Origin: Synechococcus sp. A18-25c
GTDB taxonomy: Bacteria; Cyanobacteriota; Cyanobacteriia; PCC-6307; Cyanobiaceae
Assembly: GCF_014280035.1 (NCBI RefSeq)
Contig: NZ_CP047957.1
Coordinates: forward strand, 806,001 to 870,000
Reading direction: 5' to 3'
DNA length: 64,000 bases
The position numbers and the translations under genes are program-made. Shown piece by piece: positions 23,030-58,903 of the stretch (the first letter of the stretch is position 1; the number at the start of each line of letters is the position of its first letter). The notes under the pieces were generated by a model, which was not told the origin of the DNA, searched no databases, and saw only the letters and a list, made by a program, of their open reading frames with translations.

Positions 23030-25747
23030 TTGGCGCACACCCTGGTCATCGTTGAGAGCCCCACCAAGGCCCGCACCATCCGTGGATTCCTCCCCAAGGA
23101 CTTCCGAGTGGAGGCCTCGATGGGACATGTGCGCGACCTTCCCAACAACGCGAGTGAGATTCCTGCTGCTCAAAAGGGGCAAAAGTGGGCCAATCTCGGC
23201 GTCAACACGGAAGCAGACTTCGAGCCCCTATACGTGGTTCCGAAGGACAAAAAAAAGACTGTGAAAGAGCTGAAGGATGCGCTCAAGGGTGCCGATCAGC
23301 TGCTTCTGGCAACGGATGAAGACCGGGAGGGAGAAAGCATCAGCTGGCATCTGCTGCAGCTGTTAGCGCCGAAGGTGCCGGTGAAGCGCATGGTGTTTCA
23401 CGAGATCACCAAAGAGGCCATCGGTCGCGCGCTTGAGCAGACCCGGGAGCTCGACATGGAGCTGGTCCACGCCCAGGAAACGCGCCGCATTCTCGACCGA
23501 CTGGTCGGATACACCCTCTCGCCGCTGTTGTGGAAGAAAGTGGCCTGGGGGCTCTCGGCCGGGCGGGTGCAGTCGGTGGCCGTGCGTTTGCTGGTGCAGC
23601 GCGAACGGGCTCGGCGTGCGTTCCGCAGTGGCAGCTACTGGGACTTGAAGGCGGCTCTTGAGCAGTCCGGCACGCGTTTCGATGCCAAGCTCACCCATCT
23701 CGAAGGGCAACGGATCGCCACCGGCAATGACTTCGACGAGAGCACAGGTGGACTGAAGGAGGGCAGCAAGGTCCGATTGCTGAGTGAGGGCGATGCCCGC
23801 ACGCTGTCAGAAGCTGTGAAAGCCGCCGCCTGGGCTGTCACCACGGTGGAGGAGAAGCCCACGGTGCGCAGGCCCGTGCCGCCGTTCACCACCAGCACCC
23901 TGCAGCAGGAATCCAACAGAAAGCTGCGTCTGTCGGCGCGCGAGACCATGCGGTGTGCACAAGGTCTCTATGAGCGTGGCTTCATCACCTACATGCGCAC
24001 TGATTCGGTGCATCTCTCCGACCAAGCCATCAGTGCGGCCCGTAGCTGCGTGGAGTCCCGCTACGGCAAGGAGTATCTGAGCAAAGCCCCTCGGCAGTTC
24101 AGCACAAAAGCTCGCAATGCGCAGGAGGCTCATGAGGCGATTCGCCCTGCCGGTGAGAGCTTCCGTGCTCCCCAGGAGACCGGACTCGATGGCCGGGATT
24201 TAGCCCTCTACGAATTGATCTGGAAACGCACGGTGGCGAGCCAGATGGCCGAGGCGCGCCTCACCATGCTGTCGGTGGATCTCAGTGCTGCGGAGGCCGT
24301 GTTCCGCGCTAGTGGCAAGCGAATTGATTTTCCCGGATTCTTCCGTGCTTACGTCGAGGGCAGCGACGATCCCGATGCTGCGCTGGAGGGCCAGGAAGTG
24401 CTGCTGCCGGCCTTGAAGGTTGGTGATGCTCCCAACCTTCAAGAGGTGGAAGCGCTCGGTCATCAAACTCAGCCACCGGCCCGTTTTTCCGAAGCTTCCC
24501 TCGTGAAGATGCTCGAGAAGGAAGGCATCGGCCGGCCATCCACCTATGCGTCCATTATCGGCACGATCGTGGATCGCGGGTACGCCTCTCTCCTCAACAA
24601 CTCACTCACTCCGAGCTTCACGGCCTTTGCGGTGACGGCGCTCCTGGAGGAGCATTTCCCCGATCTCGTCGACACCTCCTTCACGGCCCGAATGGAGAAC
24701 ACGCTGGATGAGATCTCCCATGGCAAGGTGCAGTGGCTGCCTTACCTGGAAGGTTTCTACAAAGGCGATGAGGGCCTGGAGTCCCAGGTGCACCAACGGG
24801 AAGGTGACATCGACCCGGGGGCATCACGCACCATCGATCTCGAGGGTCTTCCCTGCGTGGTCCGCATCGGCCGTTTCGGTGCCTACCTGGAGGCGAAACG
24901 TGTCGGTGACGATGGCGAAGAGGAGCTGATCAAGGCCACTCTTCCCCGCGAGATCACTCCTGCCGATCTTGATCAAGAGCAGGCCGAACTCATTTTGAAG
25001 CAGAAGGCCGATGGGCCTGAAGCTCTTGGCGAAGATCCCGAAACCGGTGATCTGGTTTATCTGCTGTTCGGTCAGTACGGCCCCTATGTGCAGCGGGGTC
25101 AGGTCAGCGACGACAACCCCAAGCCCAAGCGCGCTTCGCTGCCGAAGGGCGTCAAACCCGAGGATCTCAGTCTTGACGATGCGCTGGGCTTACTCCGCTT
25201 ACCCCGTCTGCTTGGTGAGCACCCTGATGGCGGCAGGGTGCAGGCCGGTCTCGGCCGTTTCGGGCCCTATGTGGTTTGGGACAAGGGCAAAGGGGAAAAG
25301 GATTACCGCTCCCTCAAGGGTGATGACGACGTGCTTGCCGTTGGACTCACCCGTGCCATTGAGCTGTTGGCCATGCCCAAGCGTGGCCGCGGCGGCCGCA
25401 CGGCGCTCAAGGATCTGGGCAAGCCTGACGGCAGCGATGAGACCGTGCAGGTCTACGACGGTCCCTACGGGCTCTATGTGAAGCAGGGCAAGGTCAATGC
25501 CTCTTTACCTGAAGGCAAGGGGGCTGACGACATCACCCTGAAGGAGGCGGTGGAACTTCTTGCGGCCAAAGCGGCCACCAAAAAGAGCAGTCGCAAGTCG
25601 GCATCGGCGAAGAAGCCAGCCGCCAAGAAATCAACAGCGAAAAAGCCAGCGGCCAAGAAGCCTGCCGCCAAGAAGCCCCCGGCTACCACCAAATCGGGTC
25701 GGCTTCGCGCCAGTGCCGTGCGCGTGATCCGGCCCGCCGATTCCTGA
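23030..25747 (+). CDS. topA: DNA topoisomerase I with lysine/alanine-rich tail
   Basis: Type IA topoisomerase that relaxes negative supercoils. The N terminus [20 protein letters not shown] starts at a TTG; the Toprim acidic motif DEDREGE and the active tyrosine in [14 protein letters not shown] (Tyr321) are present. The C-terminal region has repeated 'GRFGPYV' type domains instead of zinc fingers. The last 60 residues are rich in K and A (KKPAAKK repeats), like a histone H1 tail. A GTG 21 bp earlier is an alternative start. Confidence 0.94.
25605..25680 (+). repeat. Degenerate AAGAAGCC repeat coding the TopA tail
   Basis: Tandem near-copies of a 12-15 bp unit (GCCAAGAAGCC variants) code the KKPAAKK tail of TopA. 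Slippage at such a tract could vary tail length between strains. Confidence 0.6.
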
Positions 25748-39932: not shown

Positions 39933-40652
39933 GTGACTCAGTCTCCGTACCAGCATCAGGATCCACGCCGGATCGACCTGCAGCGTCTGATCGATCAGGC
40001 GCAACGGGATGGCGATGCGCAACGTCTGGCGCGTCTCGAGCTGCAGTGGGTCCATCGCTTTGGGGTGGATTCGCTACCGCAGAGCACCACGCTTGAACGC
40101 ATCGATGATGCCGCTGTTCATCCCGACGTGTCTCCAGCCTTGATGAAAGAAAGCTCCGCTGAGGCGATCGCCGCCGTTGAGCTGGCTTCCTCTGAGACAG
40201 CCACCTCAGAGACAGCCACCTCTGAGACAGCCCCGCCCGACCTAGCCACGCAGACCCCAGCCGCTACCACGGATTCGGACACGGCTGATTTAAAGGCAGT
40301 TCCTGCTCCCGAAGAGCAGCGCGTTGACTCGACGGCCAGTCCCTGGTCAGCGCTGGAGCCAGAGCCAGAGCTGGAGACAGAGCCAGAGCCAGCACTGCAG
40401 GCCGATCAAGAGCAGCCGACGACTTCGGACTCAGGGTTCAGTCGTTTCACTGCGCTCTTGAAGGATTGTCTTGATGATGTGGGACGGGTCGTTGATCGTG
40501 AGGACCACACAAGTGGCGCTTCACCAGCTCCTTCCGCAGTCTCTGCTGCTGCACCAGCACCATCCCCCAGGCCCGTTCCAGCCTCAGGCCCCCGTCGTCT
40601 ACGCCGATGGTTGACTCCCGTCGATGCTGACGATCTGCCCAAGGCGTCTTGA
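39933..40652 (+). CDS. Low-complexity Glu/Ala/Pro-rich protein, unknown
   Basis: GTG-started 239-residue soluble protein 4 bp after the permease. A conserved-looking N-terminal helix pair (RRIDLQRLIDQAQRDGDAQRLARLE) leads to a long disordered region with SETAT repeats and EPEPELETEPEP. A short C-terminal helix GFSRFTALLKDCLDDVGRVVD and the end RRLRRWLTPVDADDLP follow. No recognised domain. Confidence 0.65.
   Translation: MTQSPYQHQDPRRIDLQRLIDQAQRDGDAQRLARLELQWVHRFGVDSLPQSTTLERIDDAAVHPDVSPALMKESSAEAIAAVELASSETATSETATSETAPPDLATQTPAATTDSDTADLKAVPAPEEQRVDSTASPWSALEPEPELETEPEPALQADQEQPTTSDSGFSRFTALLKDCLDDVGRVVDREDHTSGASPAPSAVSAAAPAPSPRPVPASGPRRLRRWLTPVDADDLPKAS
40191..40235 (+). repeat. 15-bp tandem repeat, three copies
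   Basis: TCTGAGACAGCCACC, TCAGAGACAGCCACC and TCTGAGACAGCCCCG in tandem code SETAT/SETAP in the disordered region of the preceding protein. Confidence 0.75.
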
Positions 40653-40658
40653 GGCTCC

Positions 40659-41375
40659 ATGGCTGGTTTCCTTGATGCGCCCCTTGATCGTGCCCAGCTC
40701 AAGCGCGGCTTGATTGTGTCGGTGCAGGCTCCCGAGGGATCGCCCATGCGCCATCCGGATGTGATTGCAGCCATGGCGGAAGCGAGCCTGCGCAATGGGG
40801 CCCTGGGTGTTCGTCTGGAGAGTCCTGAACATATCGGTGCCGTTCGGGAACGCTGTCCTGATGCCTTGATCATCGGGCTGTGGAAGCGCACCTGGGCTGG
40901 AAGTTCCGTCTACATCACTCCGCGATGGCATGAGATCCAAGCGGTCTGGGCCGCGGGCGCCGACGTGGTGGCCTTAGATGCCACCGATCGCGCGCGCCCG
41001 GATGGTGAACGATTAGAGGATTTGGTGCGTCGCGCTCGATCAGAGCTTGGAGCCCCGTTGATGGCCGATATCGACACGCTGGCCAATGGGCTGCGCGCGG
41101 CTGCGTTGGGTTGTGACTGGGTTGGAACCACGCTGTTCGGCTACACCGAAGCGACAGCAGCCTCGTCTCCACCGGCCTGGGATCTCATTCAGCCCCTGCG
41201 TGAGCAGTTGCCATTGACCACCCCCTTGATCTGTGAGGGCGGCATCGCATCGGCTTGCGCAGCTGTTGACGCCATTCAGCGCGGTGCAGATGCAGTGGTG
41301 GTGGGAACGGCCATCACCGGCGTGGATCTCCAGGTTGCTGCCTACAGGCAGAGGATGGACGTGCAGACTGGTTGA
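40659..41375 (+). CDS. nanE: N-acetylmannosamine-6-phosphate 2-epimerase
   Basis: TIM-barrel enzyme that interconverts ManNAc-6-P and GlcNAc-6-P. The 238-residue product shows GLIVSVQAPEGSPM, IIGLWKRTW (catalytic Lys region), VVALDATDRARPDG and CEGGIAS near the phosphate site. No other sialic acid catabolic gene is nearby, so it may serve an amino-sugar salvage or cell-wall sugar role. It follows the low-complexity gene by 6 bp. Confidence 0.88.
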   Translation: MAGFLDAPLDRAQLKRGLIVSVQAPEGSPMRHPDVIAAMAEASLRNGALGVRLESPEHIGAVRERCPDALIIGLWKRTWAGSSVYITPRWHEIQAVWAAGADVVALDATDRARPDGERLEDLVRRARSELGAPLMADIDTLANGLRAAALGCDWVGTTLFGYTEATAASSPPAWDLIQPLREQLPLTTPLICEGGIASACAAVDAIQRGADAVVVGTAITGVDLQVAAYRQRMDVQTG

Positions 41376-41393
41376 GTCTCGCGAGACTCAACC
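41370..41393. promoter_or_regulatory. Perfect 24-bp palindrome between nanE and small ORF
   Basis: GGTTGAGTCTCG followed by its exact reverse complement. It covers the nanE stop and ends one base before the ATG of the 60-residue ORF. It may form a 10-bp stem with a CGCG loop in RNA or be a repressor site. No T-run follows. Confidence 0.55.
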
Positions 41394-41394
41394 C

Positions 41395-41577
41395 ATGCTT
41401 CGCCTGATGTCGGCCCCGGCAATGATCGGTGGATTGGTTTTCGCCCTGCCTCTCGCGGTCCTTCCGATGAACGAACTTCAGGCTTTGAATCGGGAGTTGG
41501 GCTACCTCTGCCGCAACCCCCCGCGCGAAGCCTTGACGGTGTGTCGGATTCATGCGCGCCTGGTGAGATCGTTTTGA
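41395..41577 (+). CDS. Small secreted protein, 60 aa
   Basis: 60 residues: N-terminal hydrophobic leader LMSAPAMIGGLVFALPLAVLP, then a short mature part with two cysteines (GYLCRNP and TVCRIHA) that could form a disulfide, ending RLVRSF. The start ATG at 41395 sits right against a perfect palindrome. Function unknown. Convergent with groEL2 across 24 bp. Confidence 0.6.
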   Translation: MLRLMSAPAMIGGLVFALPLAVLPMNELQALNRELGYLCRNPPREALTVCRIHARLVRSF

Positions 41578-41601
41578 TCCGATCAGGCGCGCGTTGTTGA
41601 A

Positions 41602-43263
41602 TCACATCATGCCGGGCATGCCCATGCCTCCCATGCCTCCCATGCCACCCATGCCACCCATCGGGTCGCCGCCGGGTGCAGCTGCTGCAGCGGGTTCGGG
41701 CTTGTCAGCCACCACCACCTCTGTGGTGATCAGCAGCGAAGCGATCGACACCGCGTCCTGTAGGCCCAGGCGAACCACCTTGGCAGCATCCAGGATGCCG
41801 GCCTGAAGCAGGTCTTCGTAGGTTCCGGTGAGGGCATTGAAGCCCTGGCCGGTGCGCTGGACCTGCTCCACCACCACATCCCCGTTGGAGCCAGCATTGA
41901 TGGCAATCTGCTTGAGCGGTGCGCTCAGGGCACGCTTCACGATTTCCACGCCAGTGCGTTGATCACCCTCGAGCTTCGAGGCCACGGCATCGAGAGATCC
42001 GGCGAGCTGTAGCAGGGTGGTGCCACCACCCGCAACAATTCCCTCCTCCACTGCGGCGCGCGTGGCATTGAGAGCGTCTTCGATACGCAGTTTGCGGTTC
42101 TTCAGCTCCGTTTCGGTGGGAGCGCCCACTTTGATCACCGCCACGCCGCCGGCCAGTTTGGCGATCCGTTCGGTCAGCTTCTCGCGGTCGTATTCCGATT
42201 CGGTGTTCTCCAGCTCGCGACGGATGGAGGCCACACGGTCAGCCACGGCGGCCTGACTGTCTTCGCCCGCCACGATCGTGGTGTTTTCTTTGCTGATGGT
42301 GATTCTGCGGGCGCGTCCGAGGTCCTGAAGCGTGACCTTGTCGAGGGTCATGGCCTTGTCTTCGCTGATGACGGTGCCACCAGTCAGGATGGCGATGTCA
42401 GCCAGTGCTGCCTTGCGTCGCTCGCCGAATGACGGAGCACGCACAGCGGCCACTTGCAGCACACCACGGTTCTTGTTGACCACCAGGGTGGCCAGGGCTT
42501 CACCGTCCACCTCTTCGGCCAGGATCACCAGTGGGGAGCCGGACTGTTGAACCGTCTCGAGCACCGGCACCAGATCGGTGACGGAGCTCACCTTCCGATC
42601 GGTCAGCAACAGCAGTGCGTTGTCGAATTCGCACAGCTGACGGTCACCGTCGGTGACGAAATAGGGAGAGCTGTAGCCGCGGTCGAAGGCCATTCCTTCG
42701 GTCACTTCCAGCTCGGTGGCGAGGGACTTTGACTCCTCCACGGTGATCACACCGTCCACGCTTACCCGGTCCATGGCCTCAGCGACCATCCGGCCGACCT
42801 CTTCATCACCACCGGCACTGACCGTGGCGACCTGACGGATGGCATCGCCGCTGACGTCTTGACTGCATTCGGCAAGGCCTGCCACCACATGGGCGACGGC
42901 CGCTTCCATGCCGCGACGCAGTTCGATCGGGCTGGCACCCGCCGCTGTGTTGCGCAGGCCCTCTTCGACCATGGCCTGAGCGAGCACGGTCGCCGTGGTG
43001 GTTCCGTCGCCAGCCTTGTCCTTGGTCTTGGACGCCACCTGCTGGATCAGCTTGGCCCCGATGTTTTCAAAGGGGTCTTCCAGTTCGATTTCCTTGGCGA
43101 TCGTGTCGCCGTCGTTAATGATGTCGGGCGCTCCGAAGGACTTCTCAAGCACCACATTGCGACCGCGGGGGCCGATGGTGACGCGCACGGCATCGGCAAG
43201 GGCATTCATCCCACGCTCGAGCGACGCGCGGGATTGATCTGAAAAGCTGAGAAGTTTGGCCAT
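41602..43263 (-). CDS. groL: Chaperonin GroEL, second-copy type without groES
   Basis: 553-residue 60-kDa chaperonin. GDGTTTATV carries the ATP-site threonines, and the C-terminal tail is [18 protein letters not shown]. The N terminus [22 protein letters not shown] and no adjacent groES fit the cyanobacterial GroEL2 group, usually a stress-responsive single gene. MAKLL is the family start; an ATG 3 codons earlier is unlikely. No CIRCE repeat is seen upstream, only a short inverted repeat. Confidence 0.93.
41621..41660 (-). repeat. 9-bp tandem repeat coding the GGM tail
   Basis: CCCATGCCT / CCCATGCCA units repeat four times (plus strand) and encode GGM repeats of the chaperonin tail, a normal GroEL feature. 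Confidence 0.8.
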
Positions 43264-43280
43264 AAACAACACTTACCCAA

Positions 43281-43300
43281 TTGCTAATTTCCCATAGCAA
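43281..43300. promoter_or_regulatory. Inverted repeat upstream of groEL2
   Basis: TTGCTA (43281-43286) and TAGCAA (43295-43300) around 8 nt, 18-37 bp before the groEL2 start. It replaces the CIRCE element that is absent here and may be an operator. Confidence 0.4.
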
Positions 43301-43392
43301 CAGGTCGCTTGACCCGGTTTTGGAAGTGGGGAAAGCCGAATCAAGCCGCTCTGATCACAGACGGATCGAACTCAGCTCGTTAGCGTTGATCC

Positions 43393-43569
43393 ATGACTGA
43401 TTCAGGGGTGCTCTTTTTCGGTCTGATGGCCGCTTTGGCGGGCTCCCTGGCCCTCGTCTATGTGCCTCTGAGGATTTTTCTGACGGCCACGGAGCGCAGC
43501 CGTCGGTTTCGTCTGCTGCAGCGGATTCGCAAGTTGCGAGATGAGCTGGGACAGCCCCTCGAACGCTGA
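43393..43569 (+). CDS. Small single-pass membrane protein, 58 aa
   Basis: ATG at 43393 gives MTDSGVLFFGLMAALAGSLA... to LGQPLER, 58 residues. A hydrophobic helix (about 6-29) is followed by a strongly basic tail (ERSRRFRLLQRIRKLRDEL). It reads opposite to groEL2 and faces fabG. Layout resembles small thylakoid or photosystem-linked proteins, but I do not recognise it. Confidence 0.6.
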   Translation: MTDSGVLFFGLMAALAGSLALVYVPLRIFLTATERSRRFRLLQRIRKLRDELGQPLER

Positions 43570-51971: not shown

Positions 51972-52043
<72 letters not shown>

Positions 52044-58870: not shown

Positions 58871-58903
58871 AAAAAAAAAGGGAGGACCTCAGTCCTCCCT
58901 TTT
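58871..58903. terminator. Bidirectional terminator between gmk and psaJ
   Basis: Perfect stem GGGAGGAC / GTCCTCCC with loop CTCA. TTTT follows on plus and nine T on minus, so it ends gmk and psaFJ. Confidence 0.88.

Follow-up and report, generated by a model that had tools for sequence, protein, structure and literature searches.

The window, that is, the whole 64-kb stretch of DNA that was analysed, contains nanE, which encodes a putative N-acetylmannosamine-6-phosphate 2-epimerase, followed by a small gene for a protein of 60 amino acids (the 60-aa gene) and then, in convergent orientation, by a gene that we take to be groL from the GMPGMM terminus of its protein. The nanE product matches PF04131 (E 4.5e-40) and NF002231 (263 bits, with a cut-off of 189). 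The junction between nanE and the 60-aa gene carries a perfect palindrome and several shorter elements, whose positions are collected in Table 1. Moreover, a strong hairpin with TTTT in its loop lies at 41554-41592, over the end of the 60-aa gene and between that gene and the convergent groL; the fold of 41550-41596 reaches -29.6 kcal/mol (z -6.3), and the hairpin is likely a two-way terminator.

Table 1. Features at and around the junction of nanE and the 60-aa gene, in window positions unless otherwise stated.
Feature	Position	Strand	Remarks
Window	806001-870000 of the genome		Single-contig genome, 2,511,360 bases
nanE	40659-41375	+	Putative N-acetylmannosamine-6-phosphate 2-epimerase (PF04131, NF002231)
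Box CAGACTG (CARANTG in the clade)	41364-41370	+	Proposed -10 element, within the last nanE codons
Perfect 24-bp palindrome	41370-41393	.	GGTTGAGTCTCG plus its own reverse complement
nanE stop codon TGA	41373-41375	+	Inside the palindrome
Conserved core TGAGTCTCGCGAGACTC	41373-41389	.	Reads as inverted repeat GAGTC-N6-GACTC and equally as a pair of repeats 9 bp apart; the nanE stop lies within it
First GWCYC repeat (GTCTC)	41376-41380	+	Six bases past the box; candidate transcription start near 41376
Second GWCYC repeat (GACTC)	41385-41389	+	From sequence comparison
60-aa gene	41395-41577	+	Conserved; N-terminal hydrophobic helix, two conserved Cys
ATG of the 60-aa gene	41395-41397	+	One base past the palindrome end

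The 60-aa gene is present in 28 of the 31 genomes of the genus (completeness of the three without it: 63, 80, and 93%) and in 63 of the 251 genomes of the family, and the five matches found among 145 class-level genomes all come from that same family. On these comparisons it is a real and conserved gene, restricted to the family in the searches performed. Its protein, in which 16 columns are invariant across 22 sequences (Cys in two of these columns), is modelled as three helices (mean pLDDT 78, pTM 0.46); the single N-terminal hydrophobic helix of the model makes it plausible that the protein is secreted, as the initial annotation of this DNA had assumed. Searches against Pfam and PADLOC returned no family match, NCBIfam gave one match below the cut-off, and the PDB only one chain, with an E value of 0.8.

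The initial annotation described a perfect 24-bp palindrome that covers the nanE stop codon, ends one base short of the next ATG, and can form a 10-bp stem, and all of this proves exact. Taken alone, the palindrome folds into such a stem around a CGCG loop (-14.3 kcal/mol, z -5.0); the stem is retained within 91 bases of context, yet the fold of that context as a whole is unremarkable (z -1.2, with 23 of 200 shuffles equally good). An Rfam scan of the window yielded no match at the palindrome, a tRNA at 51972-52043 alone reaching the gathering score. No other gapless perfect palindrome with a half-length of at least 8 occurs in the window. A 24-bp palindrome would be expected 0.0066 times per window from composition and 0.006 times from 1000 first-order Markov windows. 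The expectation rises, however, to 0.26 in the 2.51-Mb genome, so that the contention that this symmetry is unlikely by chance holds for the window and fails for the genome. Five further distinct gapless palindromes of 24-28 bp were found in other loci (0.95 Mb, partly redundant), and thus palindrome length alone is no proof of function. The window also has three perfect inverted repeats (1918-1947, 24412-24443, and 58876-58903), their arms being 12-13 bases long and their spacers 4-8, and a perfect 28-bp gapless palindrome, ACCTCCAGCGCCTGCAGGCGCTGGAGGT, lies near the same locus of another genome (L029, L133, and L151).

Conservation was followed in 22 genomes of the genus, the window's own included, which were chosen by eye as sharing the same layout of nanE stop, element, and small-gene start (form A), with L007 and L008 being nearly identical and L031, whose small gene is frameshifted, being retained. 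Together with six rows of another form (form B; L013, L019-L022, and L028), they account for every one of the 28 genomes of the genus in which the gene occurs. In form A, the distance from the nanE stop to the small-gene start is nearly constant at 19-20 bases. The non-coding columns 4-17 have a mean pairwise identity of 0.86, 8 of the 14 being invariant, compared with 0.41 and 0 of 74 for the fourfold nanE sites of the same rows, and none of 100,000 resamplings of these fourfold sites reached the identity of columns 4-17. Hardly any variation affects the inner arms, GAGTC..GACTC. All 12 pairs of the palindrome are formed in this strain only. With wobble counted, each of pairs 4-9 is intact in 21 or 22 of the 22 rows and pair 1 in 20, whereas pairs 2 and 3 are intact in only 3 and 7 rows and pairs 10, 11, and 12 in 13, 15, and 18, respectively; pairs 7-9 are invariant, pairs 5 and 6 have one break each, and the central pairs are broken in 4-9 rows. 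Pair 4 is T-A in 11 rows and T-G in the other 11, a one-sided change that never breaks it, no row is altered on both sides at any of pairs 4-9, and both-sided alternatives are confined to pairs 2, 3, and 12, where pairing is often absent. Among relatives, symmetry is therefore lost in the outer arms (pairs 2 and 3) and in some central pairs (10-12), and kept in the inner pairs 4-9. As far as these alignments go, the perfect 24-bp symmetry is a strain-specific embellishment and the least conserved aspect of the site.

The initial annotation treated the palindrome as the unit and missed the conserved box CARANTG, which begins upstream of it within the last nanE codons; the conserved unit, as read from the alignments, extends beyond the palindrome, resembles a promoter, and consists of the box CAnAnT(G), six bases, and GWCYC-N4-GWCYC. 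In the form-A rows, C1, A2, and A4 of the box are invariant, and T6 and G7 are kept in 21 and 20 of 22. Read in the nanE frame, the box encodes Gln followed by Thr (14 rows), Ser (5), Asn (2), or Arg (1), and the codon concerned (ACT, AGT, AAT, or AGG) varies at its second base and has T as its third base in 21 of 22 rows; all 14 Thr codons at the box are ACT, whereas in the rest of these nanE genes ACT makes up 57 of 315 Thr codons. Since this T is maintained despite the changing amino acid, selection at this base acts on the nucleic acid. Perfect symmetry in one strain can mislead in this way, the conserved part being smaller within the palindrome and yet reaching outside it. At L031 and L058 (Synechococcus sp. 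SP2 MAG), a frameshift splits the 60-aa gene and the box T is lost with the inverted repeat intact, which suggests decay or an assembly error.

The strict pattern CAnAnT-N6-GWCnC-N4-GWC is found in 33 of 87 distinct upstream regions (153 loci collapsed, whereby L008 drops out), against 0 in the reversed and 0 in the reverse-complement controls and a mean of 0.02 in the shuffle set; the pattern was derived from the counted rows and these rows are related, so that neither these counts nor the following ones represent independent events. A looser pattern is present in 42 of the 87 regions, in 20 of them across the nanE stop and in 22 at 21-99 bases beyond it, and the latter indicate that the box and the repeats stay together regardless of nanE. 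The remaining 45 regions lack even the looser pattern and include several near-forms scored as misses (L018, L031, L040, L044, and L145 look like such) and more distant groups without the pattern; the 17 listed upstream regions in loci without nanE are also among these 45. In form B (six genomes), nanE ends 21-68 bases ahead of the pattern match, and boxes such as CAGAAT occur with the stretch TGAGACGCGTGAGAC or near variants, without the palindrome, with a box-repeat spacing of 7-8 and with different repeat letters. Form C, seen in relatives further removed, has GTCTC-N4-GTCTC six bases past the box, again without the palindrome and at a varying distance from nanE; the 17 form-C rows were selected with a pattern that includes the spacing of six, and the conservation of the pattern columns in them is inflated. 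GAGTCTC and GAGACTC are mutual reverse complements and, thus, two GAG-W-CTC units placed nine bases apart read both as direct and as inverted repeats. Form A would then retain both halves of the unit, form B mainly the GAG side, and form C the CTC side, and what the three forms appear to have in common is GWC, or something near it, twice and nine bases apart.

A search for the palindrome with up to three mismatches found a single copy in its own genome and showed it to be present in 3 of 60 genomes, its own included. The inverted repeat has one exact site in its own genome and 16 sites in six genomes, against 18 in the control, 6 of the 16 being this locus, one per genome. For the composite pattern of box and repeats, the own genome contains, with up to three mismatches, this site as an exact match and one more at three mismatches (control 0), and the 31 genomes contain 25 matches, 20 at this locus and 5 elsewhere, against 6 in the control; a further regulon search gave 7 sites against 13. 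The box and left arm alone, with up to three mismatches, yield 38 matches in the own genome against 12 in the control, this site alone at one mismatch, three at two, and the remainder at three, and nearly all of the extra matches vanish when the right arm is added to the pattern. A dispersed repeat and a shared operator or regulon were both rejected on the single copy within three mismatches and on off-locus matches that stay at control level for the full module. In these genomes, the full module is private to the 60-aa gene, with no sign of a regulon.

Our preferred explanation, to which we give about an even chance of being right, is that the palindrome forms the central part of a compact promoter/operator module that serves the 60-aa gene specifically. 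The box would be the -10 hexamer, transcription would begin near 41376, at the first repeat, and the repeats, lying over approximately +1 to +14, would be operator-like, with a regulator most likely blocking or gating initiation. In the marine clade, the module would have slid onto the end of nanE, where its left part would double as codons and stop codon, so that a regulatory site would have come to share bases with the last codons and the stop of a gene; the neighbouring GAGTCTC and GAGACTC copies would amount to an inverted repeat, lengthened to 24 bp in this strain. The -10 hexamer has A, A, and T at positions 2, 4, and 6. The box CAGACT agrees with TATAAT at three of six positions (A2, A4, and T6), exactly the conserved ones, and has C, not T, at position 1. 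A sigma-70 scan of the window that requires at least 4 of 6 matches in the -10 element finds no site here; no -35 hexamer lies 16-18 bases upstream in the window, nor is there a conserved block at that distance in the 17 form-C rows, and TTGACA is present in L019 and L020 only, 19 bases off. As a general class, sigma-70-type promoters with an operator over the start resemble the module in the A2/A4/T6 box, in the approximately six bases to the presumed start, and in the repeats over that start point; they differ from it in that the module begins its box with C, lacks a conserved -35 element, and has a single site per genome.

The literature searched gave no published transcription start for this locus and, by title or abstract opening, no published account of the site; it would represent a familiar kind of element, unnamed as far as this literature goes, namely a module that is strongly conserved and controls a small, conserved picocyanobacterial gene. 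To have just one site per genome is unusual for a regulatory protein, and we consider a global regulator less likely than either a local one or an intrinsic initiation signal. The interpretation in the initial annotation is partly supported: the site is probably regulatory and adjoins a real, conserved small gene, and the repressor binding that it envisaged may occur at this candidate site.

The stem invites other explanations. A hairpin in the mRNA could hinder initiation at the AUG until the ribosome finishing nanE opens it, thereby coupling the translation of the two genes, a tentative possibility to which we give a lesser weight. The stem is stable here and in 20 of the 22 form-A rows (-6.4 kcal/mol or lower), a retention that the promoter reading does not call for and that counts against that reading, pair 4 changes between T-A and T-G without ever interrupting the pairing, the stop-to-start spacing is nearly constant, and no Shine-Dalgarno sequence is visible in form A. 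However, no row has both-sided changes at pairs 4-9, box and repeats persist in forms B and C where both the stem and contact with nanE are absent, and coupling gives no reason for the fixed T inside nanE. Moreover, according to a review on the subject (PMC12548453), structure just downstream of the stop codon and added distance both go with weaker coupling. Hairpin-based coupling as treated there resembles this site in the stem between stop and start and in the lack of a visible Shine-Dalgarno sequence, but the unit described here also exists away from the nanE stop and without a stem. The initial annotation had the stem mask the start codon; the ATG lies outside the stem and there is no visible Shine-Dalgarno sequence to hide, and of this claim only a crowding of the ribosome survives. 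Crowding would also be at work in a switch between two mRNAs, in which the read-through stem crowds the start codon and a transcript from about 41376, lacking the left arm, leaves it open. The predicted energies agree with such a switch, since the shortened leader falls to -6.7 kcal/mol (z -0.6) from the value of the full stem; it seems improbable overall and, if true, would make the nanE stop codon a stop signal, a promoter discriminator, and half a stem at once.

It is similarly doubtful that the site is a palindromic operator and nothing else, with a dimeric regulator on GAGTC-N6-GACTC and the box having another role or belonging to the same site. The symmetric half-sites are near-invariant and the centre is free to vary in the 22 rows, as would suit such an operator; nevertheless, no second clear genomic site emerged from the inverted-repeat searches, the composite pattern adds a single one at three mismatches, and the repeats have other orientations in forms B and C. 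Chance, by which a constrained nanE end and the start of the small gene would happen to yield a palindrome in this strain, is favoured by the expected number per genome, by the five unrelated palindromes of other loci, and by outer pairs that are specific to this strain. However, the inner element is conserved far above fourfold sites, and outside the nanE context as well, so that chance could account at most for the extension of the core to 24 bp; for the core it is already unlikely, and as an explanation of the whole it is quite unlikely. An intrinsic transcription terminator of nanE, suggested by the stable stem at the end of the gene, is highly improbable: the palindrome is followed by CATGCTTCGC and, in line with the initial annotation, has no T-run, a simple scan for terminators over 40600-43400 reports none at this place, a conserved gene begins one base later, and a stronger hairpin stands at the end of the 60-aa gene.

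The CIRCE operator of HrcA was considered because groL is adjacent. Its consensus is TTAGCACTC-N9-GAGTGCTAA, whereas the arms here are GGTTGAGTCTCG and CGAGACTCAACC with zero spacer, and it was rejected as not fitting; both are inverted repeats near a groEL-family gene, but the present site differs in arms and spacer and lies on the far, 3' side of groL, fronting another gene.

A second conserved block, approximately AAAGCTTTCTGAAG, lies about 25-45 bases upstream of the box at L036, L038, L048, L049, L161, L165, L168, and other form-C loci, a position that would suit an activator, and is absent from the form found in the window. At L170-L172, L174, L176, and L186 (genus g5), where the small gene lies away from nanE, it is preceded by another near-palindrome, TCTTAAGA, mostly CTCTTAAGAG.
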